DNA from: Sulfuricurvum sp.
Lineage (GTDB): Bacteria > Campylobacterota > Campylobacteria > Campylobacterales > Sulfurimonadaceae
DNA length: 64,000 nucleotides
Assembly (NCBI GenBank): GCA_030696775.1
Contig: JAUYRN010000005.1
Coordinates: 124,001-188,000, forward strand
Reading direction: 5' to 3'
The notes below the pieces were generated by a model that worked only from the letters and a program-made list of their open reading frames with translations, did no database searches and was not told where the DNA came from. This document shows, in pieces, positions 47,608 through 64,000 of this stretch (position 1 is its first letter; every line of letters begins with the position of its first letter). Position numbers and translations under genes: made by a program.

Positions 47608-48460
47608 TTCATCAAGCATCAATATAGATGAATATTTCAATGCTATTGATGTAGAAAGTATTAAAACTAAGCTTTCAGATGCTAAATATCACACTATCAC
47701 AAATGATTTAGAGAATATCATCAAAGCGGATTTAAACACTATCAAAAATGATTATTTAGCTTTAAGTGATAGTTATTCTCCTGATGAAATAAAAGAAATT
47801 GAAAAAGCTTTTAACTATACAGCTCATAGAAAAAAAGTAAAATTTATGGAGTACTTCAAAAAACTTAATATTAAAAGTTGCCCATTTTGCAATAACAATT
47901 ATATTTACTTTTATACAGAAGATGCAAGAAAATTTAATACATTAGCGACATTGGAACACTATTATCCAAAAGGAAAATATCCTCATCTCTCTTTGTCTTT
48001 TTATAATCTTATTCCATCATGTAGCACGTGTAATAGCAAATTTAAAGGCAATGTTACACATGAGGGAGAGATACTTCACCCTTATTATGAAGATTTTGAT
48101 GATAAAGCCAAATTTAGCGTCGGTGTTGATAGTTTATCCGTTCATAAAAGTATAAAATTATCTGTCAAGTTAGAATCAAATGATGATAGATGCAAAAAAA
48201 GTATCGATAGATTTCAACTCGATAAAATCTATACACAACACAGCGATATAGCCCAAGAGATATGGAATAAAGCCCAAGTTTATAATGATTCAAGGATAGA
48301 TGAGTTGTATGAGAGTTTCTATAAAAATTTAGGCTATTCAAAAGAAGAGGTTAAAAATATGATTTTTTGTAATTATCTTGATCAAAAAGATATTAACAAA
48401 CGAAATCATGCCAAACTGACGCAAGATATTTTAAAACAGTTTGAATTGATACGTAAATGA
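47594..48460 (+). CDS. HNH endonuclease, PtuB-like effector
   Basis: 288 aa. The zinc pair CPFC (Cys96, 99) and a second pair CSTCN (Cys143, 146) flank LEHYYPKGKYPHLSLSFYNLIPSC, the HNH core of PtuB-type proteins: His122 and Asn138 with the EHYYPK form of the usual DHFYPK. An N-terminal helical region (1-90) and a C-terminal helical tail (200-288) surround it. Starts inside the end of the ATPase gene and ends in an ATGA overlap with the thiE-like gene, so the pair has been fitted into an existing operon. A+T-rich like its partner. Confidence 0.8.
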   Translation: MKQIDSSSINIDEYFNAIDVESIKTKLSDAKYHTITNDLENIIKADLNTIKNDYLALSDSYSPDEIKEIEKAFNYTAHRKKVKFMEYFKKLNIKSCPFCNNNYIYFYTEDARKFNTLATLEHYYPKGKYPHLSLSFYNLIPSCSTCNSKFKGNVTHEGEILHPYYEDFDDKAKFSVGVDSLSVHKSIKLSVKLESNDDRCKKSIDRFQLDKIYTQHSDIAQEIWNKAQVYNDSRIDELYESFYKNLGYSKEEVKNMIFCNYLDQKDINKRNHAKLTQDILKQFELIRK

Positions 48461-49164: not shown

Positions 49165-50595
49165 ATGTTTGAAACCATTATCGGTTTGGAAGTACACGTC
49201 CAGCTTAACACTCAGTCTAAACTTTTTTGCTCATGTCCAACGAGTTTTAATCACGAACAAAACACCAACACATGCCCGACATGTTTAGCACTTCCGGGAG
49301 CATTGCCGGTACTTAACAAAGAAGCAGTTCGTAAAGCAGGTATGTTTGGTACAGCAGTTGGTGCGACTATCAACAGAACATCATTTTTTGACCGTAAAAG
49401 TTATTTTTACCCTGATAGCCCAAGTGCCTACCAAATCACACAGCTTTATACTCCGATCGTTGAACATGGTAATTTGGTTATCGATTTTGAAGATGGAAGC
49501 CACAAAACAATTCGTATTAACCGTGCTCACATCGAAGCGGATGCGGGAAAAAATATCCATGAGGGGGCTATCTCTAAAGTGGATTTGAACCGTGCCGGGA
49601 CACCACTTTTGGAAATCGTATCTGAGCCTGATATGCGTTCAGGGGATGAAGCGATTTTGTATCTTAAAAAGCTTCACTCAATAGTGCGTTATTTGGATAT
49701 ATCGGATGCCAACATGCAAGAAGGGTCTTTCCGAGTAGATGTCAATGTCTCTATTCGTCCTAAGGGAGATGAGAAGCTTTATACCCGTGTTGAGATCAAG
49801 AACATTAACAGTTTCCGATTTATCCAAAAAGCGATTGAACTTGAAGTAGCGCGTCAACGTGAAGCGTGGGAAGATGGCGTATACGAGTCAGAAATCAGAC
49901 AAGAAACTCGTCTTTTCGATCAAGCGAAACAAGAAACACGTTCGATGCGTGGAAAAGAAGAAGCAGCGGATTATCGATATTTTCCTGAACCTGATTTACT
50001 CAAAGTGGTTGTGGATGATGCGATGTATGCGGATGTTATTAATATTCCTGAACTTCCCGATGCAAAAAAAGAGCGGCTGGTTAGCGAGTATGGACTTCGC
50101 GAGTATGATGCGGCTGTTATCACAGCGGATCTTGATACGGCTCACTATTTCGAATCGATGCTGACGTGTGGCATTACCGCTAAAAATGCAGTAACATGGC
50201 TTACTGTTGAGCTTCAAGGGCGACTAAAAGGCGGTATGGGTGCACATGAGTCGGCAATCACCGCACAAACGCTTGGCGGATTGGTTAAGCGTATCGAAGA
50301 AAACGTTATCAGCGGCAAAGCGGGCAAAGAGATTTTGGATTATTTGATTGAAAATGAGACGGATCAGATTGATGACGTGATTGAAAAATTGGGACTCAAA
50401 CAAGTAAGCGATACAGGGGCATTAGAAGCACTTATCGATGAAGTTCTTAACGCTAATCCTGAAAAATTGGCAGAATACAAATCGGGTAAAGATAAACTTT
50501 TCGGATTTTTTGTCGGTCAAGCAATGAAAGCATCTAAAGGTTCGGCAAATCCTCAAACTCTTAATGATCTTTTAGTCGCAAAATTAGCGCAGTAA
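49165..50595 (+). CDS. gatB: Asp-tRNA(Asn)/Glu-tRNA(Gln) amidotransferase subunit B
   Basis: Kinase/transamidase subunit of Gat[25 protein letters not shown] with the zinc Cys pairs (CSC and CPTC), [28 protein letters not shown]-like [15 protein letters not shown], and a C-terminal YqeY-like tail domain. 476 aa, complete. Its partner gatA is 31 kb upstream in the ileS-guaB operon. Confidence 0.96.
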
Positions 50596-50603
50596 GAATT
50601 TTT

Positions 50604-52163
50604 ATGTTAAGCAGGTGGATAGTAGGTTTTGCTTTTTTCCTTCACACCTACCACCCCTATCAGCGGACTAAAATCTTTTTTTACAATCTTTTAGAAAATC
50701 AGAACTATAAATATAAAAAGTCTTTTGATATGTTCATGATGGGACTTATTTTTTTAAGTGTCTATATTCTGATCCGTTCGGTTAAACATGAAATACCTCA
50801 TGGATGGCTGCTGTTTAATAATTACGCTATTTCATTAATATTTTTGGTTGAATATCTTCTTCGTTTTTGGTTGCACAGCAACAGTTCTAAAACCATTATT
50901 GAACAATATGAAAGTGATATTTTCCTCCATCGTCCTTTCTCTTTTGCGGGAGCAATGAAAACCATTTTCTTGCAAAAAATGGAGTATGTTTTTTCACCCA
51001 CTGCATTAATTGATTTACTTGCTATTATGCCATTTTTCCATGAGTTTAGATTATTACGTATTTTTATTCTTTTCCGAGTATTAAAACTTTTTCGCTATGC
51101 CAAAAGTTTGCAGCGTCTCATGTCTATTCTTGCTTCCAAAAAGTTTGAAATCTTTACACTGATTCTCTTTACACTGATTATGATTATGGTCTCGTCTGTG
51201 CTCATATACGTAATGGAAGCAAATAATCCAGAGTCACGTATCAATACTCTTTTTGATGCAGTTTATTGGTCGGTTGTGACCATTTTTACGGTTGGATATG
51301 GTGATTTTGTCCCTGTTACGCACGGGGGAAGAATTGTTGCGATGATGATTATTGTCTCAGGTATTGCGGTTATCTCATTTTCAACTTCGATTGTTGTTTC
51401 GGCGTTTACTGAGAAGCTCGATGAAATCAAAGAAGAGAAGGTGATTGACAGAGTAAATGCTCTTAAGCGGATGTATCTCGTGTGCGGGTTTTCACCCTTG
51501 GCACATGAGGTGATCCGAAAGTTGCATAAACATCATGTGCCGATCGTTGTTCTTGAAAAAGATATTAAAAAAGTGCAAGAAGCGCGAAGCAATGGATTGT
51601 TGGCATTGCACTATGATTCTGCTTCTTTGCATACCTACAGCCATTTGAAATTTGATTTTGAGCATCAGATTGAAGCGGTTATTTTATTGCACGAGAGCGA
51701 TGTTTCCAATATTTATACCGCATTGACGATACGTGAGCTGACGAAGACTATTCCTTTGTACTCGGTTTTACAGCATCCTATAAATCGAAAAAAACTTTTT
51801 CTTGCTGGGATTAATCACATTGTTAATACCTATGAATTGGTGGGGATGATGAGTAAAATTATTGCTCGTCAACCGGTTGCTTTTGAAGTGATTCATGCAT
51901 TGCGTTCTGAGGAAACTTCTACGGTGATTGATGAGATCATTCTTGATGCACAGATGAAAGATCGGTTTTATGCCCTATTGGAAGATCCATTGTTTCATCA
52001 GCGCTTTAGTGTTTTGGGCATTTACAGTACACAAGCCAAACAATTTCATTTTAATCCTCATCCTGATAAAAGTATTGAATCCGGGGATGTTGCGATTGTT
52101 CTAGCCAACAGAGGGCTGATTGATGAGTTTCGGTCAAAACTCCACCGAAGAGGAAAATTATGA
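50604..52163 (+). CDS. Voltage-gated-type K+ channel with RCK (TrkA-N) domain
   Basis: 519 aa. Six membrane helices in the voltage-sensor plus pore layout: a positively charged S4-like helix (FRLLRIFILFRVLKLFRYAKSL, Arg/Lys every third residue) and the pore with selectivity filter TVGYGD at 229-234. Cytoplasmic RCK_N domain from about 290 (MYLVCGFSPLAHEVIRKL, the Rossmann strand with a non-canonical GFSPLA loop), then a degenerate RCK_C half. The next gene, overlapping by 4 bases, encodes a second TrkA-type RCK protein. Confidence 0.88.
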   Translation: MLSRWIVGFAFFLHTYHPYQRTKIFFYNLLENQNYKYKKSFDMFMMGLIFLSVYILIRSVKHEIPHGWLLFNNYAISLIFLVEYLLRFWLHSNSSKTIIEQYESDIFLHRPFSFAGAMKTIFLQKMEYVFSPTALIDLLAIMPFFHEFRLLRIFILFRVLKLFRYAKSLQRLMSILASKKFEIFTLILFTLIMIMVSSVLIYVMEANNPESRINTLFDAVYWSVVTIFTVGYGDFVPVTHGGRIVAMMIIVSGIAVISFSTSIVVSAFTEKLDEIKEEKVIDRVNALKRMYLVCGFSPLAHEVIRKLHKHHVPIVVLEKDIKKVQEARSNGLLALHYDSASLHTYSHLKFDFEHQIEAVILLHESDVSNIYTALTIRELTKTIPLYSVLQHPINRKKLFLAGINHIVNTYELVGMMSKIIARQPVAFEVIHALRSEETSTVIDEIILDAQMKDRFYALLEDPLFHQRFSVLGIYSTQAKQFHFNPHPDKSIESGDVAIVLANRGLIDEFRSKLHRRGKL

Positions 52164-52864
52164 AGCCACGCTGCGCTGCAATCTTCGGATACAATGAGTA
52201 TTCCAAGCAAATTGTGAAACAAATAACCAGCACATTTGACAATGTTGGAGTATTTGTCATTGATGAAGTCGAGTTTTTAGAGGCAAAAAATGATGGTATT
52301 AATGCTGGTAGATTTGATTTAAGTGATGATTGGCAATCGATAGAGGCACAATTTGATGTCGAGGGGCTGGTTGTTTTTTGTGCTCTTGCGGATGATGCAG
52401 AAAATGTTTTTTTGACCATTTCTCTTCGTGCAACATTTGAAAAACTTTTTATTATTGCTCTTGCTCAAGACAATGAGAGCATGATGAAGATGAAAAGTGC
52501 AGGCGCAGACAAAGTGATGCCAATTTTGCAAATTGCAGCGAATGTTATCCATGATATTTTGAGTAAACCGATTATGACGCAAGTTTTGCATGACGTTTTG
52601 TATGAAGACAGTCCTTTGAACATTATGGAAGTAGAAGTGGGAGATACTTCCCCTTTTAATGGACTCTATTTGCATGATCTCCATTTTAAGCGTGATTTTG
52701 ATCTTATTTTATTGGCGATAGTCGATCAGGAGATGGGGACAACGTTTAGTTTTGCATCAAAAGGGCACAATCACCATATTGATGCAGGAGATATTTTGGT
52801 TTTTATGGGTTATACAGATAAATTAAATCTGATAAAGCAATGGAATGATGGGGTGAGTATATGA
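52160..52864 (+). CDS. TrkA-type RCK regulator of the K+ channel
   Basis: 234 aa, no membrane helices. RCK_N with Rossmann start AAIFGYNEYSKQIVKQI (GxNxxS in place of GxGxxG) and a C-terminal RCK_C with NIMEVEVGDTSPFNGLYLHDL and DAGDILVFMGYTDKL. Its start overlaps the channel stop and its stop overlaps gpsA (ATGA), so it is made with the channel and probably forms the gating ring with its RCK domain. Confidence 0.82.
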   Translation: MKPRCAAIFGYNEYSKQIVKQITSTFDNVGVFVIDEVEFLEAKNDGINAGRFDLSDDWQSIEAQFDVEGLVVFCALADDAENVFLTISLRATFEKLFIIALAQDNESMMKMKSAGADKVMPILQIAANVIHDILSKPIMTQVLHDVLYEDSPLNIMEVEVGDTSPFNGLYLHDLHFKRDFDLILLAIVDQEMGTTFSFASKGHNHHIDAGDILVFMGYTDKLNLIKQWNDGVSI

Positions 52865-53748
52865 AAGTAGGAGTCATTGGTGCTGGGAAATGGGGTGAAG
52901 CTCTTGCATTTGCACTCAGTGAAAAAAACGATGTTATAATCACTTCTCGTACCCCTCGTGATTGGAAAAATTTTAAATCATTATCTGAAGTATTAGCGTG
53001 TGAGTACCTCATAATCACGGTTCCTGCACAGCAAGTTGCCCAGTGGCTTGAGGAAAATTTTATCTACCATGGACAAAAAATATTGGTTGCAGCAAAAGGG
53101 ATTGAAGCTTCATCCGGAAGATTTTTAAATGAGATTTATGCACAGTATATTCCGGAAGAAAATCTCAGTTTTTTATCGGGTCCTTCATTTGCGTCAGAAG
53201 TCATTCGCTCATTGCCGACGGCGTTGGTGATTAACTCGCGCTCTACACAAACTGCCCATGAGTTTGCGGCATTGTTTCCGAAATTTATTCGTACCTATAT
53301 CAGTGATGACGTGATGGGTGCAGAAATTGCAGGTGCTTATAAAAATGTTATTGCGATTGCTGCTGGTATTTGTGAAGGATTGGGTTTAGGACATAATGCG
53401 GCGGCTTCTCTTATATCCAGAGGTTTAGTAGAGATGCAACGCTTTGGCAAGGTCTATGGTGCGGATGACGATACATTTTTAGGTCTTAGCGGGGCAGGGG
53501 ATTTATTTTTGACAGCCAGTTCATCCATGTCACGTAACTACCGAGTTGGTTTAGGTTTAGCAAGTGGAAAAACCAAAGAGGCAGTATGTTCTGAAATCGG
53601 TGAAGTGAGTGAGGGGATCGGTACGGCATATGCACTTCATGAGATCGCGCAAACCAAAGGAATTTATCTCCCGATTGCTGCGGAAGTCTATGCTATTTTA
53701 GAGGGGAAATCTCCAAAACAGAGTTTAAAAGATTTGATAGAACGGTAA
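52861..53748 (+). CDS. gpsA: Glycerol-3-phosphate dehydrogenase [NAD(P)+]
   Basis: Provides sn-glycerol-3-phosphate for phospholipid synthesis. IGAGKWGEALAFAL at 5-18 (dinucleotide loop), AAKGIEASSG, LSGPSFASEV, the active-site Lys in EIAGAYKNVIAIAAGI and GLSGAGDLFLTASS. 295 aa, compact bacterial form. Terminal gene of the channel operon. Confidence 0.94.
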   Translation: MKVGVIGAGKWGEALAFALSEKNDVIITSRTPRDWKNFKSLSEVLACEYLIITVPAQQVAQWLEENFIYHGQKILVAAKGIEASSGRFLNEIYAQYIPEENLSFLSGPSFASEVIRSLPTALVINSRSTQTAHEFAALFPKFIRTYISDDVMGAEIAGAYKNVIAIAAGICEGLGLGHNAAASLISRGLVEMQRFGKVYGADDDTFLGLSGAGDLFLTASSSMSRNYRVGLGLASGKTKEAVCSEIGEVSEGIGTAYALHEIAQTKGIYLPIAAEVYAILEGKSPKQSLKDLIER

Positions 53749-53754
53749 TGATTT

Positions 53755-53780
53755 GTCATTCCCGCGAAGGCGGGGATGAC
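53755..53780. repeat. REP-like inverted repeat after gpsA
   Basis: GTCATTCCCGC-GAAG-GCGGGGATGAC, an 11-bp stem with one mismatch (T-G), of the widespread GTCATTCCCGCGAAAGCGGG type. It lies 6 bases behind the gpsA stop and may double as a terminator. Confidence 0.6.
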
Positions 53781-53807
53781 GAATACAATAATTAAAAGGG
53801 AAAAAAT

Positions 53808-54098
53808 ATGCTAGTACACATCGTCATGTTTCAATTCAAAGAAGAAAATAAAGAGGCGAATTTAGTGCAGGTTAAAGCAATGCTTGACGCACTTCCTTCT
53901 AAAATAGATACACTTAAAAGTATGGAAGTCGGTATGGATATAAGCCGTAGCGAACGCTCATTTGATTTGGTTTTGACTTCACTGTTTGAAGATCAGGGAG
54001 GGCTAAATGAATATGCTGTTCATCCTGCACATTTGGAAGTTGTGAGTGTTATCAAAGAAGTAACAAGTCTTGCAAAAGTGGTTGATTATATCCAATAG
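53808..54098 (+). CDS. Dabb (stress-responsive A/B barrel) domain protein
   Basis: 96 aa, one domain. Opening VHIVMFQFKEENKE, ALPSKIDTLKSMEVGMDISRSERSFDLVLTSLFEDQGGLNEYAVHPAHLEVVSVIKEV is the complete Dabb fold with the conserved YAVHPAH. These small dimeric barrels include haem- or ligand-binding and stress-induced members; role unknown. AAAAGGG ribosome site. Confidence 0.88.
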   Translation: MLVHIVMFQFKEENKEANLVQVKAMLDALPSKIDTLKSMEVGMDISRSERSFDLVLTSLFEDQGGLNEYAVHPAHLEVVSVIKEVTSLAKVVDYIQ

Positions 54099-54165
54099 TT
54101 TTTGAACTCATTTTTTTCTTATTTGGTTGGAGTAGAATATTTCTATACCAATTCGGAGGTTTCGT

Positions 54166-54501
54166 ATGAAAACATTAATGAGTTTAGTATCGGCTTCGGC
54201 TATTTTGGCAACGTTAGCATTTGCTGAAACACCTGTACAAAATCAAGAGCAGGTTCAAAATAAAGTGCAAAATGAAATTCAAAATCGCTTTAGAACGATG
54301 AGTACAGATGAATTGTTAGAAAAACGGGGAACAATGACATCTCAACAAGAGCGTGAACAGCTTCATAATGAACTGATGACCCGTGAGCAAAAAATGACGA
54401 AAGAACAAAAAGAAAAGTTCAATAAGCGTCCTCCTGAAAATCGTATTCCAAAAGGAATGGGTCAAGGCGGAGGAGCTGGTGGCGGTAAAGGAGGGCGTTA
54501 A
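54166..54501 (+). CDS. Secreted DUF1104-like protein
   Basis: 111 aa. Signal peptide cleaved after AFA (about residue 20). Gln/Asn-rich stretch (NQEQVQNKVQNEIQNRF), a helical segment FRTMSTDELLEKRGTMTSQQEREQLHNELMTREQKMTKEQKEKF recalling the Campylobacterota DUF1104 family (MSTDELLE), and a Gly-rich tail. Ribosome site TCGGAGG. The stop sits in a terminator hairpin. Function unknown. Confidence 0.65.
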   Translation: MKTLMSLVSASAILATLAFAETPVQNQEQVQNKVQNEIQNRFRTMSTDELLEKRGTMTSQQEREQLHNELMTREQKMTKEQKEKFNKRPPENRIPKGMGQGGGAGGGKGGR

Positions 54502-54513
54502 TCGTCCTTTTTT
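54492..54513 (+). terminator. Intrinsic terminator after the DUF1104-like gene
   Basis: AGGGCG-TTAAT-CGTCCT then TTTTT; six base pairs with one G-T. The hairpin includes the stop codon. Confidence 0.75.
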
Positions 54514-54534
54514 ACGTTAAAGAGGCATTATTAA

Positions 54535-56484
54535 TTATTTTTTAAGTGCCTCTATTTCTTCTACTTTTTCCTCGATTGTCAGTAACTCTTCTACTTTTTC
54601 TTCATAAAGCGCTTTGGTTTTTTCGAGTTCATCCGCCAAAGTACGAATTCCCTTTTCTTCATAACACTTTGGATTTGCTAAACATGCGTTAAGTTCATCC
54701 ATTTTAGCTTCAATTAGTTCAATTTCTTTGGGTAATGTTTCCAAAGCTCGAGTCTCATTGTAGGTGAGTTTGAATATTTTTGGCTTGTCTTGAATGGCTG
54801 TTTGAGATACTGGTTTTGCGAATTCCAGTGCCATGGCATCTATTTCTTGAAGCTCTTTCTCATCGTCGAGGTATTCACTGTAAGCTTTAAGACTCTCTTC
54901 GATCGTCCCGTCCCCTTTAAAAATAAAGAGTTTTTTAGCAATTTTATCAACAAAATAGCGGTCATGGCTTACCAATATGACAGCTCCGGGAAAATTTTGG
55001 AGTTTCTCTTCTAAAATATTGATAGTTGGGATATCGAGATCATTGGTCGGCTCATCGAGGATGAGAATGTCTACTTTTTTGGTGAAAAGGAGGGCAAGGG
55101 CTACTCGATTTTTTTCTCCACCGCTGAGCGTCCCGATTTTTTTATCCAAAAATTCTCTGGGAAAAAGAAAGTTTTTGAGATAGCCGTAGACATGATAATC
55201 TGTCCCTTGTGCGTCCACTCGATCACCGCCATGAGGACAAAATGTCTCAACGAGGTTAAGTGAATCATCGAGCATTTCGCGGTGCTGATCGAAATAGCCA
55301 ATGCTTAGTTCCCCTTGCTTGATAATTCCGCTTGTGGGTTTAAGTCGTCCTAGAAGTGCTTTGAGGAGAGTTGATTTTCCGCTTCCGTTAGGTCCTACGA
55401 CGGCTATGACATCTTTTTGCAAAATCCGCGTTGAAAAATCTTTGATGAGAAGTTTATCCCCTAGTGTCAGGCCTAAATGCTCCAATTCAAAGAGCATCTT
55501 TTGACGATTTACCCCTTCTCCACGGTTGAAATGTTTGGCTTCGCGTTCCAGCTCGAGACGCATTTTATGAATTTTACTGGGGTTGTTTTTGGCATCTTCG
55601 CGTAAAGCCAATACCCGTTCTTTCCGTCCTTCGTTACGTTTTAGACGTGCTTTAACTCCACGGGATAGCCATTCATTTTCAGTTTTAAGCAGTTTGAGTA
55701 GGTTGTCGTGCTGTTGTGCCATCGTGCGTAATAATTCTTGCTTTTGTGTCAAATAATTGCTGTAACCTCCTGTGAATTCACGCAGAGCGCAATCTTCAAC
55801 TTCGATGGTTTTCGTGGCGATTTGGTCGATAAAATAACGGTCATGGGAGATAAAAAGGAGAGTAAACTTTTCTTTTAAAATCAGTTCTTCGAGAAACTCT
55901 ACCATGTAAACGTCGAGGTGATTGGTGGGTTCATCCAGTAGGAGAATATCAGGCTTGAGAAGCAGTAATGATGCGAGAGCAACACGGCGTTGCTCCCCAC
56001 CGCTGAGTAAATCAACGTTTTTATTTTCATACTCCGTGAGCATAAAGTGATGCATGATACGCACGATTTTATCGTCCAAATTCCAAGCGTTATGATGATC
56101 TAGGAAATTACTTAAACGTGCTTGTTCATCCAGTAGTGCAGTATTTTCAAATTCGGTTGCGAGAAGAGCAGAAATCTCATCAAAACGGACTTTGGACGTT
56201 CGTAGTTCTCCCAATCCTGCTTCGACTGCTTCTCGAACGGTGTGAGACGGGTCAAATTTCGGAACTTGAGAGAGCATTTTGATCTCAATTCCTTGGCGTG
56301 TCATGCGCTCGCCCTCATCAGCATCAAGTGAGCCGTGGACGATTTTCATCAGAGTTGATTTGCCGCTGCCGTTTTTGCCGACGATAACAACACGCTCACC
56401 CTCATCGATGTGAAAGTTAATACTTTCTAAAATTTTCTGCGCTTCGTAGTGTTTGCTAACACCGAGTAGATCGACTAATGCCAT
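54535..56484 (-). CDS. uup: ABC-F ATPase (Uup-like)
   Basis: 649 aa. Two ABC domains: first Walker A GKNGSGKST (36-44) and signature LSGGEQRRVALASLLLLKPDILLLDEPTNHLD; second GPNGSGKST and LSGGEKNRVALALL. The C-terminal ~100 residues are a Glu/Lys coiled coil as in Uup. ABC-F proteins act on ribosomes or, for Uup, on branched DNA; no membrane helices. Its start region (GGAATAATTTATGGCA on the coding strand) exists twice: here and at 58404-58419, so an ancestral upstream gene has been split off by the island between. Confidence 0.92.
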   Translation of the reverse strand: MALVDLLGVSKHYEAQKILESINFHIDEGERVVIVGKNGSGKSTLMKIVHGSLDADEGERMTRQGIEIKMLSQVPKFDPSHTVREAVEAGLGELRTSKVRFDEISALLATEFENTALLDEQARLSNFLDHHNAWNLDDKIVRIMHHFMLTEYENKNVDLLSGGEQRRVALASLLLLKPDILLLDEPTNHLDVYMVEFLEELILKEKFTLLFISHDRYFIDQIATKTIEVEDCALREFTGGYSNYLTQKQELLRTMAQQHDNLLKLLKTENEWLSRGVKARLKRNEGRKERVLALREDAKNNPSKIHKMRLELEREAKHFNRGEGVNRQKMLFELEHLGLTLGDKLLIKDFSTRILQKDVIAVVGPNGSGKSTLLKALLGRLKPTSGIIKQGELSIGYFDQHREMLDDSLNLVETFCPHGGDRVDAQGTDYHVYGYLKNFLFPREFLDKKIGTLSGGEKNRVALALLFTKKVDILILDEPTNDLDIPTINILEEKLQNFPGAVILVSHDRYFVDKIAKKLFIFKGDGTIEESLKAYSEYLDDEKELQEIDAMALEFAKPVSQTAIQDKPKIFKLTYNETRALETLPKEIELIEAKMDELNACLANPKCYEEKGIRTLADELEKTKALYEEKVEELLTIEEKVEEIEALKK

Positions 56485-56494
56485 AAATTATTCC
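56479..56494. repeat. 16-bp direct repeat, copy at uup start
   Basis: TGCCATAAATTATTCC on the plus strand, containing the uup start codon. An exact second copy is at 58404-58419, where it covers the stop of the upstream membrane protein gene. The two copies bracket the toxin-antitoxin/nuclease island. Confidence 0.75.
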
Positions 56495-56784
56495 TAAGTT
56501 CTTTGGTGCCAATAAAATGGTTTTTGATTTTGATGCATAACGGCGATAATGGTAATATGGTCGTTTGTATGCTGATACACAAGTCCAAAGGGAAAACGAT
56601 TGCATAAACAACGTCGTGTACTTTTAGTCATTGATTGCCATGCATTGGGGAAATCGATAATGCGTAATATAGTTGCATAAACTTCTTGTGCGAATTCTAA
56701 TCCTAATCCTATTTGTTGTTCTTCATAATAATCAATAGCATGATTAAATTCTAATTCAGCATCAGGGAAAAAACTAAAATTCAT
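56494..56784 (-). CDS. RelE/ParE family toxin
   Basis: 96 aa. The ParE-type fold is visible in SFFPDAELEFNHAIDYYEEQQIGLGLEFAQEVYATILRIIDFPNAW and in the later strands FPFGLVYQHTNDHITIIAVMHQNQKPFYW. Such proteins inhibit gyrase (ParE) or cleave mRNA at the ribosome (RelE); which applies is not readable. The stop TAG lies right beside the uup ATG. Four-base overlap with the antitoxin gene upstream. Confidence 0.85.
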   Translation of the reverse strand: MNFSFFPDAELEFNHAIDYYEEQQIGLGLEFAQEVYATILRIIDFPNAWQSMTKSTRRCLCNRFPFGLVYQHTNDHITIIAVMHQNQKPFYWHQRT

Positions 56785-57014
56785 TTGCTAAGGCGATTTT
56801 TGATTTTTTGAAAGACTTCTTTCCCATCTATTGGGGTAATTGTTCCTGAATCGAGTATTTGAACACGTTTTTCAATCTCTTGTTTCCATAACTCTTCAAC
56901 AATCTCTGAGTGAGGGTTTAAACTTGACAATAATTTTTCAATCAATTTTGTTTTGATATCAATAGGCATAAAATCCACTTGTGATAAGAGCTGGTTTGTG
57001 TCTAGTGCTACCAT
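56781..57014 (-). CDS. Antitoxin of the RelE/ParE pair (addiction module component type)
   Basis: 77 aa. LLSQVDFMPIDIKTKLIEKLLSSLNPHSEIVEELWKQEIEKRVQILDSGTITPIDGKEVFQKIKNRL follows the CHP02574 'addiction module' pattern (LLS; EELW..E...R; G..I..V). It has no DNA-binding domain of its own beyond the short N terminus. Overlaps the toxin start (ATGA) and precedes it, the usual antitoxin-toxin order. Confidence 0.85.
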   Translation of the reverse strand: MVALDTNQLLSQVDFMPIDIKTKLIEKLLSSLNPHSEIVEELWKQEIEKRVQILDSGTITPIDGKEVFQKIKNRLSK

Positions 57015-57217
57015 GATATACGCCCTTTTAATGAAATACTTATTCTACGGACATTATAGCTAAAACAGGAGAATTCAAAATACGGTTTCATTAAAAAGAT
57101 AAATGAAATGTTTATGCCTTGGAGAGAATATTTGCGCGAATTATAGCGGATAGGAGTTTGTGAGTGGTGATGCTACAACTTTATTGCTTTTGTCATGAAA
57201 AAAGTATAATAGTTTTT

Positions 57218-57236
57218 TTAACATTTAACGCCTCGT
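57218..57236. repeat. 19-bp inverted repeat, left arm
   Basis: TTAACATTTAACGCCTCGT, the exact reverse complement of 58273-58291. It contains the stop codon of the nuclease gene. A TATAAT box at 57205-57210 on the plus strand points across it. Confidence 0.85.
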
Positions 57237-58063
57237 TGGATAGACCCGTTGGATTTTGGATGGTTGGATGTTAATTTTATTACCTGTATATCTGCGTTTA
57301 TTAGCTGTTTGATTGCAGGGATAGTATTTAGTTGGCTATTATGCAGTTTGTCTGTTGTTTTAACCTCGACAAAACAAACAATATTTTCCTTGACTAGTGT
57401 TAAGTCTGGCCATCCATTCCGATGTTCTGGATTCATAGCAATCCATTTAGCAATAAGACAATACTCATCTTTCGTAAGTGCATCATACATTTTCTCTAAA
57501 AAATTCATATTAAGACCTGGATACCATTCATTTATAGCTGGATAGGATAAGATTTCTTCGCATGCTGATAGGTATTTGGAACGATCAGTTTCATATATCT
57601 CTTTCATGATGCTATTGAGTTGATCTTCATTCTTTTCTGCTAAGACATTAATGCCTTTAAGACAAGCATCTTCTCTCGCGTTAATGCATGTTCCATAAAA
57701 GTAACTTGTTTTTGTTAATTCATCCAAGCATAAACCCTTTAAAACCAATCCGATAGCTCCACCTTCACAATAAGCCCCTACAAAGCCAAGATTAGAGAAA
57801 TATTGCCATGCCCAAATTTCAGGTTTTTTGGATTTATCCCATTCAAGTACTTGAATCGGCAAGCTAAGCTTTTCGCATTGCAACACAAGAGAGAGATTGG
57901 AAATAATATATCGCTCACCTTCTTCAGTAATATTAAATTCATTATTGAGATAGTTTCTAGAAGCTAGCCCTTTTAATTGAGTTTTGTTAGCACTAGATAC
58001 ACAATTTCCATTGTAGGCGTCCATTAGGATTTTTTTCATAGAGTCTGTTAGTGGGCGATTCAT
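57218..58063 (-). CDS. VRR-NUC domain nuclease-like protein
   Basis: 281 aa. C-terminal VRR-NUC (PD-(D/E)xK) motif: RNGWPDLTLVKENIVCFVEVKTTDKLHNSQ with Asp220, Glu233, Lys235 and Gln244. The preceding 200 residues are uncharacterised: an N-terminal helical section (TEEGERYIISNLSL looks like a winged-helix segment) and five or six Cys scattered (including CEGGAIGLVLKGLCL and YGTCINAREDACL). VRR-NUC proteins are structure-specific nucleases (FAN1 type, phage resolvases). The gene stop lies within the left inverted repeat; the start is at 58063, and 210 bases separate it from the right arm. A+T-rich; acquired. Confidence 0.72.
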   Translation of the reverse strand: MNRPLTDSMKKILMDAYNGNCVSSANKTQLKGLASRNYLNNEFNITEEGERYIISNLSLVLQCEKLSLPIQVLEWDKSKKPEIWAWQYFSNLGFVGAYCEGGAIGLVLKGLCLDELTKTSYFYGTCINAREDACLKGINVLAEKNEDQLNSIMKEIYETDRSKYLSACEEILSYPAINEWYPGLNMNFLEKMYDALTKDEYCLIAKWIAMNPEHRNGWPDLTLVKENIVCFVEVKTTDKLHNSQLNTIPAIKQLINADIQVIKLTSNHPKSNGSIQRGVKC

Positions 58064-58201
58064 TTATTTTCCTTTTCAACGTCTTGCTTACCAGAAAATT
58101 TTCTCTCACTCTTCTGTATAAGAGTGTCTAATGCCTGTCTACATTCCCACTTAAAAAGTCACTGCCATTAAGTTAAGAAACCAATGGTTATTTCTGCTTT
58201 C

Positions 58202-58258
58202 GGAAGTGGGACTTTAGTCCCGCTATTTATCCTTTTGCGACACTGAAGTGTCACTTCC
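58202..58258. repeat. Cloverleaf-like repeat with three nested palindromes
   Basis: Outer stem GGAAGTG (58202-58208)/CACTTCC (58252-58258); inside it two 6-bp hairpins, GGGACT-TT-AGTCCC (58208-58221) and GACACT-GA-AGTGTC (58239-58252). The GGGACTTTAGTCCC unit is a common short repeat in bacteria. It lies inside the 19-bp inverted repeats, upstream of the nuclease gene. Confidence 0.6.
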
Positions 58259-58272
58259 AAAAAGCTAAATAT

Positions 58273-58291
58273 ACGAGGCGTTAAATGTTAA
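58273..58291. repeat. 19-bp inverted repeat, right arm
   Basis: ACGAGGCGTTAAATGTTAA, exact reverse complement of 57218-57236. Together the arms bracket a 1036-base interior with the nuclease gene. Confidence 0.85.
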
Positions 58292-58403
58292 TACTGAAAT
58301 TTTTATATGCCCAAATTTTCATCCCGTATGGGTTTGAGAATTCTTAATCTATAACTTCACCACTCCTCAGAAGGTGTCGAACCATTCAAAATATTTTATC
58401 AAG

Positions 58404-58419
58404 TGCCATAAATTATTCC
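58404..58419. repeat. 16-bp direct repeat, copy at the end of the membrane protein gene
   Basis: TGCCATAAATTATTCC, identical to 56479-56494. It includes the TAA of the membrane protein gene at 58413. The sequence past it on the island side (ATGGCACTTGATAAA) does not continue as the uup gene. Confidence 0.75.
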
Positions 58420-58736
58420 GTAGGTGTGGAGATGGTAAAACAGGTATTACGTGAGAGATACCATGTCGCGATGGCATAATCTGTATATGGATATTCACTC
58501 TGTGATGGAGGTATGGAATCATGAAGCAGTTTGGAACGAATGATCCCAAAAATGATAAAGCCCAACAGCAATGAGCCAATAGCAATAAACCAATCGCTTT
58601 TCAACCATACTAAAAGGGCTAAAGCGTAATTTCCATAGCTCAAAGCCCATCCCAAACAACGTGCCATAAATCGACACCTGCGTGTCGGAAGGGTTGGGGT
58701 TGGGTCAATGTGGAAGGTAAAAGGTTCATTATTCAT
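58413..58736 (-). CDS. Small two-helix membrane protein after nasA
   Basis: 107 aa. Two hydrophobic segments (about 30-46 and 49-66: LSYGNYALALLVWLKSD; FIAIGSLLLGFIIFGII) inside polar ends; the N terminus is Pro-rich (TFHIDPTPTLPTRRCRF). It begins 22 bases after the nasA stop and is likely cotranscribed. Family not recognised. Before insertion of the island its stop would have abutted the uup start. Confidence 0.6.
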   Translation of the reverse strand: MNNEPFTFHIDPTPTLPTRRCRFMARCLGWALSYGNYALALLVWLKSDWFIAIGSLLLGFIIFGIIRSKLLHDSIPPSQSEYPYTDYAIATWYLSRNTCFTISTPTE

Positions 58737-58758
58737 AGGGCGAATTATAGCGAAATAG

Positions 58759-60786
58759 TCATATCCTTTTTGTACTTAGGGTGACTTGTGCAGATTTTAA
58801 AGCAGTTTGAAATGAAAAAGGGTCGTTAATGGTGGGGACTAACGTATTTATGGGAGCTTTCGGATAACCAAAAGGGGCAAAAAGATGGCGTGAAGCGAGT
58901 TCTCCAAAACGAATAGGCAACTCAAGCTGTCCAAGTTCATTGGAAACTATAACGCTGTCACCTTCATTTAGATTCATCGCAAGCGCTTCGGAAGCATTCA
59001 TAAGCAGATATGGATGTTCTTCATCTTTTAGGAGTTCATCGACCAAGCCTGTTCGGGTCATGGTGTGCCATTGTTTTTTGGTTCTCCCTGTAATCAGGAC
59101 ATAGTGTTCATCAGCAAGAGTTAAAGTGGAGGATATGATGGGGTGAAACTGTACTTTACCCGATGTTGTTGGAAATGTCTCATCGGTATAAAGGCGTTCT
59201 CCTCCCCATTGATAGGAGAGGGTGTCATACTCTTGTGTACTTTGGTCGCATAATCGTTTTGCAGTTAGGGCTTTATACTCATCGTACACGTCTTGGGTAT
59301 TAGGGTACTCAAATCCGCGCAATCCTAGTTTTCTGGCAATATCACAAATAATATCAAGGTCGCTTTTCGCTCCCGATGGCGGAGATTTAAACGGACGTAC
59401 GCGTTTGATGAAACGTTCTGAATTGGTCATGCTCCCCTCTTTTTCGCCCCATCCGAAAGTTGGCAATACCAAGTTTGCTAATGCAGCTGTTTCGCTGAGG
59501 GTGCAATCTTGAACGACTAAAAAAAGATCAGGAGATTCAAGTGCATGTTTCGTTTTTGCGACATCGGGCAAACTTAGGAGAGGATTGGTGCAAGCGACCC
59601 ATAAAAATTTGATTTTATCGCAGAGTATGGAATCTACGGTTTCGGTAATGGTGATTCCTACCTCTGGTGAGATGGCATTTTTCGGAAGATTCCAGTGAGT
59701 TTCACAAGCGATTCGGTCATCTCGATTACGAACATCACGGTATCCGGGTAGGGCATTGGAGAGATAGCCTGTCTCTCGTCCTCCCATGGCATTGGGCTGA
59801 CCTGTCAGAGATAAAGGTGAGCCTTTAGCAGCATTTAGCCTGCCTGTTGCTAAAAAGAGATTGATAAAACCTATGTTGCGCATCACTCCATCTTGTGCTT
59901 GATTGAGTCCTTGACACCACAGACCGAGTATTTTTTTATCCGATCCCAGCGCTTGAAGGAGTTGTTCGGAGGCTTCTATAGCTAAACCGCACGATTTGAT
60001 GGCATCGAGATAGGGAGTTTTAAGGGCTTCGACCAGAGTGTTTTCAAATCCTTGCGAGGAACGTTGGATGAAATCGATGTCGCACTCATTTCGTCGGTAA
60101 AGTTCACCTAAGAGAGCATTGTAAAATAGGGTATCGCTTCCGCTGTGCAGACCAATCCAAAGATCACTTTTTTGCGCCGTTTCGGTACGGATAGGATCAA
60201 TAGTGATGATGAGTGTATCGGGATGAGATTTTTTACGTGCCAAGATGCGTCGAAACACAATCGGATGTGCCCATGCAGGGTTCGAACCGCTGATGAGTAT
60301 CACATCGGCATTATCAATGTCTTGGTAATTACCTACGGGGCCGTCGCTTCCAAAAACCATTTTGTGGGCTGTCACGGCGCTTGCCATACAGAGTCGTGAG
60401 TTGGCATCGACGTTGTTGGTTCCTAAATGTCCTTTTATCAATTTGGTAAAAAGATAGCTCTCTTCAGTCAGAAGCTGTCCTGAGAGGTAAAAATAGAGCT
60501 CTTCTTTAGAAAGAGTCGTAATATTTTGAGCAACAAGATCGATGGCTTTATCCCAAGAAATCTCTTGAAATTGGTGAGTTTTATCTTCGCGATACAAGGG
60601 TGCATGTAGACGTGCGGTATCAAGCGCTTTTGCCATTTGAATCGGTTTAAAACATAAATCTCCTAAGGTGGAGGGATTGCTTTTGTCCCCTTTGACTCGG
60701 ACACCTTTATCGCTGCATTCTACATTTAAAGCACACCCAGTACCGCAAAATGGGCATCCTGTAGAGATTGGCTGTAATGTTTCCAT
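58759..60786 (-). CDS. nasA: Assimilatory nitrate reductase catalytic subunit NasA-like
   Basis: 675 aa molybdopterin-guanine dinucleotide enzyme. N-terminal [4Fe-4S] site Cys11, 14, 18 and 45 (GCPFCGTGC...LCFK), then conserved SRLCMASAVTAHKMVFGSDGPVGNYQDI and LVLPTFGWGEKEGSMTNSERFIKRV. No Tat signal, so it is cytoplasmic, unlike NapA. Adjacency to nirA and cobA supports nitrate reduction for nitrogen assimilation. No flavoprotein or electron-transfer subunit is next to it; reduced ferredoxin is the likely donor. ATG 60786, directly after the nirA stop, is preferred over GTG 60795. Confidence 0.85.
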   Translation of the reverse strand: METLQPISTGCPFCGTGCALNVECSDKGVRVKGDKSNPSTLGDLCFKPIQMAKALDTARLHAPLYREDKTHQFQEISWDKAIDLVAQNITTLSKEELYFYLSGQLLTEESYLFTKLIKGHLGTNNVDANSRLCMASAVTAHKMVFGSDGPVGNYQDIDNADVILISGSNPAWAHPIVFRRILARKKSHPDTLIITIDPIRTETAQKSDLWIGLHSGSDTLFYNALLGELYRRNECDIDFIQRSSQGFENTLVEALKTPYLDAIKSCGLAIEASEQLLQALGSDKKILGLWCQGLNQAQDGVMRNIGFINLFLATGRLNAAKGSPLSLTGQPNAMGGRETGYLSNALPGYRDVRNRDDRIACETHWNLPKNAISPEVGITITETVDSILCDKIKFLWVACTNPLLSLPDVAKTKHALESPDLFLVVQDCTLSETAALANLVLPTFGWGEKEGSMTNSERFIKRVRPFKSPPSGAKSDLDIICDIARKLGLRGFEYPNTQDVYDEYKALTAKRLCDQSTQEYDTLSYQWGGERLYTDETFPTTSGKVQFHPIISSTLTLADEHYVLITGRTKKQWHTMTRTGLVDELLKDEEHPYLLMNASEALAMNLNEGDSVIVSNELGQLELPIRFGELASRHLFAPFGYPKAPINTLVPTINDPFSFQTALKSAQVTLSTKRI

Positions 60787-60787
60787 T

Positions 60788-62686
60788 TTATTCACCCGTT
60801 TCGAATTTTTTCAGTTCAATAACGATTTCGGTAAATACTTTCGATCGTGTCAGAGGATTAGGCTCTACCATTTTTTCGAGTATCGTTGCGTAGCGTGCAA
60901 GTTCGGAAGATTTATGACGGTAGCTTTTTTTCTCTTCTGCGAGAGGCTCATCGGTATCGTAAGGCTTATTTTGTGTGGCTCCATAAATGATAGCGCAACC
61001 AAATTCAAAAATCTCATCTTGTTCTTTGTGTGAACCGCCATGATGCTTGAGATTAAATGACAGCAGTGCTTCGAGTTTATTTTCCAGACGCATTTGTCGG
61101 TTCCATCGCATCAAAAATCCGATAGAAGCATTGGTATAACGCACTTGCAAACGGAGAATGAATTTTTCCAAACTCTCTTTGCTGACGCGCAAGTCACGAT
61201 ATTGACGCATGAGTTCCGCAACGTATTCACGTGCGTGCTCTAAGACGATTCCTTTTAGTAAGAGATGTCCTTCTCCACCCTCGCCACTGAGTGTTCCGCC
61301 GATGAAAATATCGACACCCAAGACTGTTTTTCCATTATAAGGAGTTTTGCAGCCCAAAAAGCCTAAATCTCCTGCACCGTGAATACCGCATCCTTTGACA
61401 CATGCGGACCAATACAAACGCATTTTTGCATCTTCCATCGGTACTTCACGCGATAAATACTCTCCCATTTTTATGGCATCGGGTTTGTTGGGAATGACAC
61501 CAAATGGACAATGTTCGGTTCCTGCACACGCGATGAGGTTTGCCATATAGGGAGAGGGACGGTTTGGATATTTGACAAATAACGGTAAGGCTAGTGCCGT
61601 AGTTTCATCCATGATTCCTGTAATGATGAGGTTTTGCTCGATGGTGAGACGAATGGCACCGTTTTGAGAGGCAGCAATATCGGCAGCATCGCTCAAATCA
61701 CTTCCGCTAAATACACCTGATGGGACGGCCGAGTAGAGGGCAAATGACCCGTCTTTGAGAGAAACTTTTCCGTAATGATCGCCTCCTTCGAGGCAGCTGA
61801 GAGTCTCGCCTGAGAGAGGCATTGTGTGAGAAAGTTGCTCTTCGATAGCGTTTCTAAATTCTGCCATTCCGACGGCTTCGATGAGAAAAACAAGACGATT
61901 TTTATTGCGATTGTCCCGAAAGCCGTATTTTTTAAAGAGTTGTACGACTGCTTTAAAAACGTTAACCGTTTCATGAGGCAGGACAAACATATCGGCACTT
62001 TTTGCCAATGTTCCGACACGTCCGCCTAAAAAGAGGTTAAAACCATATACGCCATCTTTTTGTGCGAGAGTTAGGGCAAAATCCTGACCGAAGATATTAC
62101 AGCGATTGGATAGGGAGCCATTGATTCCAATATTGAATTTACGAGGAAGTGTTGTAATCCACGCTTCATTTTTCAAAAATATTTTTTGAATTTCTTGCAT
62201 GATGTGAGAAGAGGAGATGATATTGTCCATCGCCAACCCATCGAGAGGATCGATGAGAATATTACGGAAGTTATCCACACCCGTTTGGTAGCTTGTAAGA
62301 CCGACGCTTTCCAGCAGACTTAGTGCTTCAGGTATATTTTCAATGGTGATGTAGCGTAATTCGATCTGCATACGTGTTGTGATGTCGATGTAGTCTTGAC
62401 CAAAACGTGTTGCTACATCGGCTAGTGTCTGTGCTTGTTCTACACTTAAAGCCCCACCGGCAATACGTACCCGAATCATAAACTTTTCAGGGGTAGCCGG
62501 ACGGTCAAAGACACCGAAACTTTTGAGGACGAAATCCTTGTCTTCGTCGGTGATGGAAGCATACCCTGTTTTGGAATATCCGATCAGTCGTTCCCATGCC
62601 TCTGAGGCACTAAAAGCATCTTTGATAGTTTCGGTTTTGTGTCGTTTGGCACTGCGTGCTTCATTAGCCTGCATTAGCGATGTCAT
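60788..62686 (-). CDS. nirA: Siroheme nitrite/sulfite reductase, NirA-like
   Basis: 633 aa. The siroheme-[4Fe-4S] ligands follow the C-x5-C...C-x3-C rule: Cys387/Cys393 (CAGTEHC) and Cys429/Cys433 (CVKGC). Earlier half-domains have FMIRVRIAGGALSVEQAQTLADVATRFG and RQTGVDNFRNI-like TGVDNFRNILIDPL. In the context of nasA it is best called ferredoxin-dependent nitrite reductase; sulfite reductase is the alternative. A C-terminal extension of ~100 residues after the fold is unusual. ATG 62686 after AAGGAGACC is chosen; the longer frame to 62917 overlaps cobA and looks non-coding. Confidence 0.85.
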   Translation of the reverse strand: MTSLMQANEARSAKRHKTETIKDAFSASEAWERLIGYSKTGYASITDEDKDFVLKSFGVFDRPATPEKFMIRVRIAGGALSVEQAQTLADVATRFGQDYIDITTRMQIELRYITIENIPEALSLLESVGLTSYQTGVDNFRNILIDPLDGLAMDNIISSSHIMQEIQKIFLKNEAWITTLPRKFNIGINGSLSNRCNIFGQDFALTLAQKDGVYGFNLFLGGRVGTLAKSADMFVLPHETVNVFKAVVQLFKKYGFRDNRNKNRLVFLIEAVGMAEFRNAIEEQLSHTMPLSGETLSCLEGGDHYGKVSLKDGSFALYSAVPSGVFSGSDLSDAADIAASQNGAIRLTIEQNLIITGIMDETTALALPLFVKYPNRPSPYMANLIACAGTEHCPFGVIPNKPDAIKMGEYLSREVPMEDAKMRLYWSACVKGCGIHGAGDLGFLGCKTPYNGKTVLGVDIFIGGTLSGEGGEGHLLLKGIVLEHAREYVAELMRQYRDLRVSKESLEKFILRLQVRYTNASIGFLMRWNRQMRLENKLEALLSFNLKHHGGSHKEQDEIFEFGCAIIYGATQNKPYDTDEPLAEEKKSYRHKSSELARYATILEKMVEPNPLTRSKVFTEIVIELKKFETGE

Positions 62687-63440
62687 GTGCGGTCTCCTTG
62701 ATTTCATGGATGTATTTTGGAAGTTTGGATTCGAGTGCGACGACATCACCAAAAATGATGATGGCAGGTTTGGGTGCTTTTTTGGCAGCTTTAGGCAAAT
62801 CCAACAGGGTTGTGATAATCGTGCTTTGATGTTCTGTTGTGGCATTGGAAACGATAGCGACATTGAGCGCAGGGTTAATCCCTTTTTCCAGTGCTTCGGC
62901 TGTGATTTGCTTTGCACGGCTCAGTCCCATCAAAACGATCGTTGTATGGTGCTTCATGTTTAGCAAGGGTATCCATTCCAAGTTCACACGATCACCTGCT
63001 AGATGAGCGGATACAACCGACATTCCAGTAGCATATCCGCGTGCAGTCGGGGCGATTCCGGCTGAGAGCGGACCGCAGAGTGCTGAAGATATCCCCGGAA
63101 TTACTTCGGTATGAATACCACATTCAGCGGCATAAATGGCTTCTTCCGTTCCTCGTCCGAAAATATAAGGATCACCGCACTTAAGACGACCGACATTCAA
63201 ACCGCTCAGGGCATATTTGGCAATGAGGATATTAATCTCCTCTTGGGTTGAGCTGTGGTGACCTTTTTCTTTTCCAACGAAGACGACTTTAGTCTGCAAC
63301 GGAATCAAATCAATAATCTCTTGGGTAAGGAGATGATCGATCAAGGCAATATCGAGTTTTTGAATGGTTTTTAGGGCTTTGAGGGTTAGTAAATCGGCAT
63401 CTCCCGGTCCGCATCCAATCAAATAAAGGTGTCCGCTCAT
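62664..63440 (-). CDS. cobA: Uroporphyrinogen-III C-methyltransferase
   Basis: 258 aa SUMT. YLIGCGPGDADLLTLKALKTIQ at the start, LKCGDPYIFGRGTEEA, VIPGISSALCGPLSAGIAPTARGYATGMSVVSAH and TTIVLMGLSRA are all standard. Makes precorrin-2 for siroheme, the cofactor of the next gene. Overlaps nirA by 23 bases. The last residues (KETAHDIANAG) match the usual tail. Transcribed divergently from the siroheme synthase gene. Confidence 0.93.
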   Translation of the reverse strand: MSGHLYLIGCGPGDADLLTLKALKTIQKLDIALIDHLLTQEIIDLIPLQTKVVFVGKEKGHHSSTQEEINILIAKYALSGLNVGRLKCGDPYIFGRGTEEAIYAAECGIHTEVIPGISSALCGPLSAGIAPTARGYATGMSVVSAHLAGDRVNLEWIPLLNMKHHTTIVLMGLSRAKQITAEALEKGINPALNVAIVSNATTEHQSTIITTLLDLPKAAKKAPKPAIIIFGDVVALESKLPKYIHEIKETAHDIANAG

Positions 63441-63541
63441 CGTATTTTCCTTATTAGGACTTTTTAATCTTCAAAATAATAGTGTAAAATGAGGGTTAGA
63501 AATGCAATAGATTGATTATTTTTTAAGCATAAAGGAATGTT

Positions 63542-64000
63542 ATGGCACTTTTCCCCATGTTCGTTGATTTGAAAGATCAAGATTGTCTCGTAATCGGTGC
63601 GGGTGAAGTGGCGCTTCGTAAGATTGAGCAACTGGTGAAGTTCGTACCAAACCTCACGGTCATCGCACCTGCTGTCCATGAAGAGATATATCAATTAGCA
63701 CATGATCATTCAATCGTCATTATCCAGCGTGAGTATGATTTGGAAGATTGTGAAAATCGATTTTTGGTTATTGGTGCGTTGGATGATCTACGTGAGCAGG
63801 AAAAAATTTATGCTGCTTGTATGACATTAAAGATTCCCGTCAACTGTGTCGATTCTCCGGCATTGTGCAGTTTTATTTTTCCTGCTTTGATTGTTGATGG
63901 AGATTTGTGTGTAGGGATTAATACGTCGGGGAAGGCACCTGCCGTGAGTTCAGCGTTGCGTCAGTATCTTACGGCTCTTATTCCTAAAAGAATTTCAAAA
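63542..64000 (+). CDS. Siroheme synthase N-terminal domain protein (precorrin-2 dehydrogenase/ferrochelatase), partial
   Basis: Open to the window end, 153 codons. LFPMFVDLKDQDCLVIGAGEVALRKIEQLVKFV is the NAD-binding start, and PVNCVDSPALCSFIFPALIVDGDLCVGINTSGKAPAVSSALRQYL is the CysG/Met8 active-site region. With cobA it completes the route from uroporphyrinogen III to siroheme. AAAGGA ribosome site, and a -10-like TAAAAT near 63484. The 101-base divergent gap to cobA probably contains both promoters. Confidence 0.88.
   Translation, partial: MALFPMFVDLKDQDCLVIGAGEVALRKIEQLVKFVPNLTVIAPAVHEEIYQLAHDHSIVIIQREYDLEDCENRFLVIGALDDLREQEKIYAACMTLKIPVNCVDSPALCSFIFPALIVDGDLCVGINTSGKAPAVSSALRQYLTALIPKRISK

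Follow-up and report, generated by a model that had tools for sequence, protein, structure and literature searches.

A nuclease-like gene in a Sulfuricurvum genome lies between two inward-facing copies of a transposon end, and this pair of arms is part of a 1925-bp insertion. The arms are TIR copies of a Sulfuricurvum family of TIRYT ('TIRtron') elements, whose transposase is of the Y1/HUH, TnpA-REP-like type and has an HTH tail. The segment is most likely an accessory-nuclease cassette assembled with TIRYT ends, and was perhaps moved in trans by them. The kind of element is known; its arrangement here is new. The window referred to below is the whole 64,000-nucleotide stretch of DNA that was analysed, and the features in question are listed in Table 1.

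Table 1. Features of the insertion and its boundaries, in window coordinates
Feature	Position	Strand	Description
Direct repeat, left copy, 16 bp, TGCCATAAATTATTCC	56479-56494	+	bounds the 1925-bp insertion
ParE-type toxin gene	56494-56784	-	PF05016, 27.9 bits, above cut-off
Antitoxin gene (Unstab_antitox)	56781-57014	-	PF09720, E = 6e-11
TATAAT box	57205-57210	+	points into the segment, antisense to the present orientation of the nuclease gene, judged from the sequence
Left arm	57218-57236	+	TIRYT-type terminal-repeat sequence, TTAACATTTAACGCCT + CGT
VRR-NUC-like nuclease gene, 281 aa, stand-alone	57218-58063	-	GWPDL...FVEVK...Q
REPIN/BIME	58202-58260		two inverted GTGG-type REPs, one hairpin, z = -5.1
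Right arm	58273-58291	-	perfect inverted copy of the left arm
Remnant tail beside the right arm	58292-58396		resembles DNA at other arm loci (L118, L116)
Direct repeat, right copy, 16 bp	58404-58419	+	bounds the 1925-bp insertion

The arms (TTAACATTTAACGCCTCGT) form a perfect 19-bp inverted repeat with 1036 bp between them. A preliminary description of this DNA had reported them at these positions, together with the stop codon of the gene inside the left arm (TTA at 57218-57220) and the plus-strand TATAAT box, and all three were verified. It did not include the genus-wide occurrence of the arms, the REPIN, the 16-bp direct repeat or the empty site in relatives. No third copy of the arm was found window-wide at up to three mismatches, and the pair is not a chance occurrence, since shuffled sequence gives only 0.02 expected matches for the window. 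The left arm turns its TTAA side towards the toxin-antitoxin pair and its inner side towards the nuclease gene.

The 1925-bp block is a lineage-specific insertion. The sequence TGCCATAAATTATTCC is present once in genome G012 (~95% identical) and in G007, and twice in the window, with 1909 bp between the copies and a net gain of 1925 bp. G012 and G007 lack the block at precisely this place, and the other relatives in the comparison lack it at the aligned site. In relatives, the flanking ABC-F gene and 107-aa gene are adjacent or nearly so, and in several of the more distant ones an ordinary small gene separates the two. The insert contains the ParE-type toxin-antitoxin pair, the left arm, the nuclease gene, the REPIN, the right arm and ~110 bp of remnants. 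The GC content is 35% in the nuclease gene and 33% in the toxin-antitoxin pair, against 42-44% in the neighbours. Within the remnants, 58292-58321 resembles DNA just past an antitoxin gene that adjoins an arm in L118, and 58323-58396 is similar to the stretch that precedes a PemK toxin gene in L116. At L116:9007-9342 (genome G004), a duplicate of the mutS 5' end (~200 aligned bases) lies beyond accessory DNA adjoining mutS and an arm, and is reminiscent of the window's 16-bp duplication in a longer form.

The REPIN consists of two inverted REPs with a GT[AG]G foot, is repeated in the genome and is accompanied there by a RAYT. Its relative (106 bp, 90%) is on contig C18 of the same genome (L129:5514-5618, G000:C18), where it sits upstream of a gene for a 682-aa KAP-like NTPase. 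Contig C10 encodes a RAYT with related REPs, which is probably the cognate of the REPIN in the window. The segment resembles REPtron/REPIN and RAYT systems in holding a REPIN for which the genome has a related copy and probably the cognate RAYT, whereas the 19-bp arms lack the GT[AG]G foot and stable hairpin and belong to another transposase group.

The VRR-NUC label given to the nuclease in the preliminary description is borderline. The PD-(D/E)XK residues of the PD...EVK...Q pattern are all present (D220, E233, K235, and Q244), but the match to PF08774 (VRR-NUC, E = 4e-4) scores 20.9 bits, short of the gathering score of 23.8. No homologue was detected in 99 relatives, nor, in scans that reach close relatives only, among one genome per species over 84,980 species or in viral contigs. 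A PDB sequence search returned no credible match, no PADLOC model matches the protein, no NCBIfam family was found for it, and a single-sequence AlphaFold prediction reached a pLDDT of only 43. Judging from its domain and from the defence-like neighbours at other arms, it is probably a stand-alone restriction or defence-type enzyme.

The arm sequence is nearly restricted to Sulfuricurvum. Allowing one mismatch, the arm 16-mer TTAACATTTAACGCCT has 41 sites in 17 of the 41 Sulfuricurvum genomes, and the reversed 16-mer, used as a control, has none in the same 41 genomes. In the genome of the window, one more exact 16-bp copy (contig C21) adjoins a gene for a 1234-aa YobI-like NTPase. Family-wide, 19 of 228 genomes have a match, 17 of them within the genus, and the longer arm pattern has a copy in only 2 of 187 family genomes outside the genus. 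When one genome per species was scanned (84,980 species), 11 contigs matched, 10 of which are Sulfuricurvum or other Campylobacterota by record title, and the arm variant of the window, TTAACATTTAACGCCTCGTAT, was not found in viral contigs. The preliminary description had staked its proposal on other copies of the arms being present in some genome; because they recur across many, it survives on that point. The consensus over the aligned arm sites is TTAAYATTTAACGCCTGACCC[GA]TAT. About one-third of the sites are the ends of transposase copies themselves. Solo arms are common, and clearly accessory DNA is absent beside some of them.

In four genomes (G021, G026, G029, and G033), two outward-facing copies of the repeat, ~820 bp apart, surround a gene whose product (253-258 aa) combines a Y1_Tnp domain with a C-terminal HTH. 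The profile matches have E-values of 4e-13 for PF01797, 2e-5 for HTH_23 (just above cut-off) and 1e-4 for HTH_28 (below cut-off). These transposase copies end in perfect inverted repeats 14-22 bp long (up to GGGTCAGGCGTTAAATATTAAT), and a second, related transposase in G029 (46% identical) has a 26-bp TIR, GGGTCAGGTATTCAATCTTCACTTTT. A MITE-like arm pair of 75 bp occurs in L145. The TTAA side lies inside the element in the transposase copies, and the arms in the window are reversed relative to that. ATAC abuts six of seven 5' ends of transposase copies (one pair among these is a local duplication), an ATAC or ATAT-type junction is found at only one of six 3' ends, and the majority of solo arms abut ATAC or ATAT. 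The outer junction of the right arm in the window is also ATAC, followed directly by GAGGCGTTAAATGTTAA, as at the 5' ends of most transposase copies. By analogy, this junction is suggestive of the tetranucleotide target that adjoins IS200/IS605 elements at their left end.

The name TIRtron/TIRYT is that of De Nocera et al. 2013 (PMC3733652), and TIRYT is subclass 2.1 of Quentin et al. 2018 (PMC6006769), which is marked by HTH_23/HTH_28 tails and by the box GGGGWSAS. The Sulfuricurvum family shares with the published elements a Y1/HUH transposase gene with an HTH_23/HTH_28-like C-terminus, long flanking TIRs, a TIR outer box (GGGTCAGG) close to GGGGWSAS, and TIRs scattered through the genome, single or paired. 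It differs in that the ends are found inside-out around nuclease, HNH, YceI/pirin, and RelE genes at lineage-specific insertions; the available text of PMC3733652 and PMC6006769 describes no such non-transposase cargo between TIRs. A further difference is that both arms in the window lack the GACC of the outer box (ACG-AGGCG), which is otherwise conserved among the aligned arm sites and likewise missing elsewhere only in L102 and L108. Among the papers searched, none combines Sulfuricurvum, transposase and inverted repeat. Related genomes carry the Y1_Tnp/HTH gene with these repeats as its ends; between the arms of the window there is a VRR-NUC-like gene instead, and no cognate TIRYT was found in the genome assembly. 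The feature in the window is therefore not itself a TIRtron, only the bearer of its ends. No Y1 transposase other than the RAYT on C10 was found in the genome, so the TIRYT family is represented here by its ends and not by an enzyme.

Small gene sets enclosed by inside-out pairs are found in other species too. The cargo is an HNH-like gene with a 397-aa gene in L109, a pair of 71-aa and 186-aa genes in L118, YceI and pirin genes with a 149-aa gene in L100, and a YefM/RelE-like pair between transposase remnants in L124. With kinship ignored, six adjacent non-transposase arm pairs are found within 2.5 kb against 0.056 expected, and four inside-out non-transposase pairs against 0.013. At three loci (L118, L109, and L108), an insertion separates genes that sit side by side, or almost so, in relatives. 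The first insertion (in G012) measures 3.2 kb, has three arms and is missing from G000 and G028; of its parts, G009 has only the BrnT/BrnA-like toxin-antitoxin part. The second (in G006), 4.6 kb long, separates secF from leuS, two genes that are neighbours in at least nine other genomes. The third (in G007) is in a variable spot, empty in G012, where the window has a PtuAB-like ATPase/HNH pair. This pair (window 45748-48460, 26% GC) comprises an AAA ATPase (619 aa) and an HNH protein (288 aa), PtuA/PtuB-like (retron Ec78/Septu-like), and the spot has a 371-aa gene and an arm in G007.

The last 13-40 bp of a RelE gene are fused to an arm at unrelated sites (L103, L105, L109, L120, L122, and L145), and the whole RelE gene is kept only in L105. 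L103 and L109 have a common left arm with the RelE tail and an 89-bp leader, followed by different cargo. From this series, one end seems to be fixed and the other variable, which is the pattern of one-ended HUH transposition. In composite transposons and one-ended HUH elements (IS91/ISCR), foreign genes lie beside or between copies of element ends. The likeness to these systems is in that placement of foreign genes and in the fixed and the variable end of the RelE-tail series; unlike in them, no complete element flanks the arms on either side, and no such enzyme was identified here.

Taken as a whole, a pair of TIRYT ends stands inside-out around the nuclease gene, and we think it probable that the block was assembled, and supplied with its nuclease, by a TIRYT enzyme acting in trans. 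The enzyme, of which none would be left in the genome, may have cleaved and joined ssDNA at the arm ends, and recombination between the repeated ends could have helped in assembling the block. Against this reading count the reversed arms, the missing GACC, the lack of a cognate TIRYT, the boundary at the 16-bp repeat, the share of arm sites that are transposase ends, the solo arms without clearly accessory DNA and the fact that no movement was observed. As the insertion is bounded by the direct repeat and not by the arms, the arms may have been passengers. The preliminary description had called the segment mobilisable, and this is plausible and supported in part: the arms are transposon-end sequences in many genomes, and the segment is within a lineage-specific insertion.

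It is possible, though on balance doubtful, that the arms are static relics, that is, TIR ends (often with a piece of a toxin gene) scattered in a REP-like manner. The segment would then not have moved as a unit, and the nuclease gene would merely lie between two ends in a recombination-prone accessory spot. The frequency of solo arms, the fusion of some of them to the 13-40 bp RelE gene end in unrelated places, the boundary at the 16-bp repeat and the lack of a TIRYT in the genome are all consistent with this. Two findings argue against it: in at least four genomes, whole small gene sets are enclosed by inside-out pairs, much more often than chance would give, and the cargo beside the same left arm differs between L103 and L109.

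The reading as a cassette assembled with TIRYT ends could be taken further, to a gene-cassette system in Sulfuricurvum that works with TIRYT ends in trans by docking, capture and exchange via one-ended ssDNA transposition, integron-like but without an integrase; we consider this extension improbable. A solo end, often with a toxin-gene tail, would be the docking point at fixed chromosomal spots, and single accessory or defence genes would be captured and exchanged beside it by the Y1/HUH enzyme. TIRYT and RAYT enzymes occur widely, and their host functions are known only in part. Should the ends of these enzymes prove to transport accessory and defence genes from one chromosomal site to another, bacteria would have a way of capturing genes that has attracted little notice. 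With its clean empty site, the window offers a clear case, and the question can be tested on the RelE-tail series and on the difference in cargo between L103 and L109.

The preliminary description also proposed that the segment is invertible. That a site-specific recombinase flips it and the TATAAT box thereby turns the nuclease on or off is very improbable, despite the perfect inverted arms and the promoter-like box outside them, pointing in. The arms are Y1/HUH transposase ends common to the genus, most of them solo or at other spacings, and we know of no reversible inversion by this transposase family. Tyrosine recombinases are encoded elsewhere in the genome; among the ORFs listed at 50000-64000 we recognised no invertase-like gene and no recombinase linked to the arms, and in the assembled sequence the segment was not seen in the other orientation. 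A TATAAT box also adjoins the arm upstream of a transposase gene, pointing into that gene, so such a box needs no switch as its explanation. Promoter inversion is not needed in the explanation by TIRYT ends.

Least credible of all is movement by an integron integrase, with the arms as the R boxes of an attC site or as two half-sites. The letters ATTTAAC and GTTAAAT, noted earlier as integron core boxes, are present and fit RYYYAAC/GTTRRRY, but they do not behave as such boxes. attC sites are roughly 50-150 bp long, whereas these boxes are more than 1 kb apart, and the conserved stretch runs past them and matches the transposase TIRs. A scan for R-box pairs with a folded interior, which is crude and unspecific (61 matches in 146 kb of shuffled DNA), found no attC-like hairpin within 57218-58291, and no integron integrase over the curated cut-off was found in the genome (TIGR02249, best 86.9 bits against 265). 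Integron cassettes and CALIN are also small gene cassettes, some of them toxin-antitoxin or defence-like, with letters that fit the R-box consensus; the window differs in having no attC or integrase and in its spacing. The same scan recovers a convincing attC-like site at the cargo end of a related arm locus (L103:2920-2977, G040:C56), TCATAAC...GTTATGC, which ends a 279-aa cargo gene next to an arm. This cargo is probably a Sulfuricurvum integron cassette beside a TIRYT end.

Among 49 proteins on the TTAA side of arms and 41 on the GACCC side, ParE was counted four times against none listed, CopG twice against none listed and PemK twice on each side; since this tally has no genome-wide control, a toxin-antitoxin enrichment on the TTAA side is suggestive only and is not claimed. 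Short tandem copies occur at the GACCC side of arms, for example GTATTTTGTATTTTG. Tandem duplications of 5-12 bp lie exactly at the outer (GACCC/ATAC) junction in L105, L110, L111, L112, L113, and L116, and in L115 the duplication there is 61 bp long.
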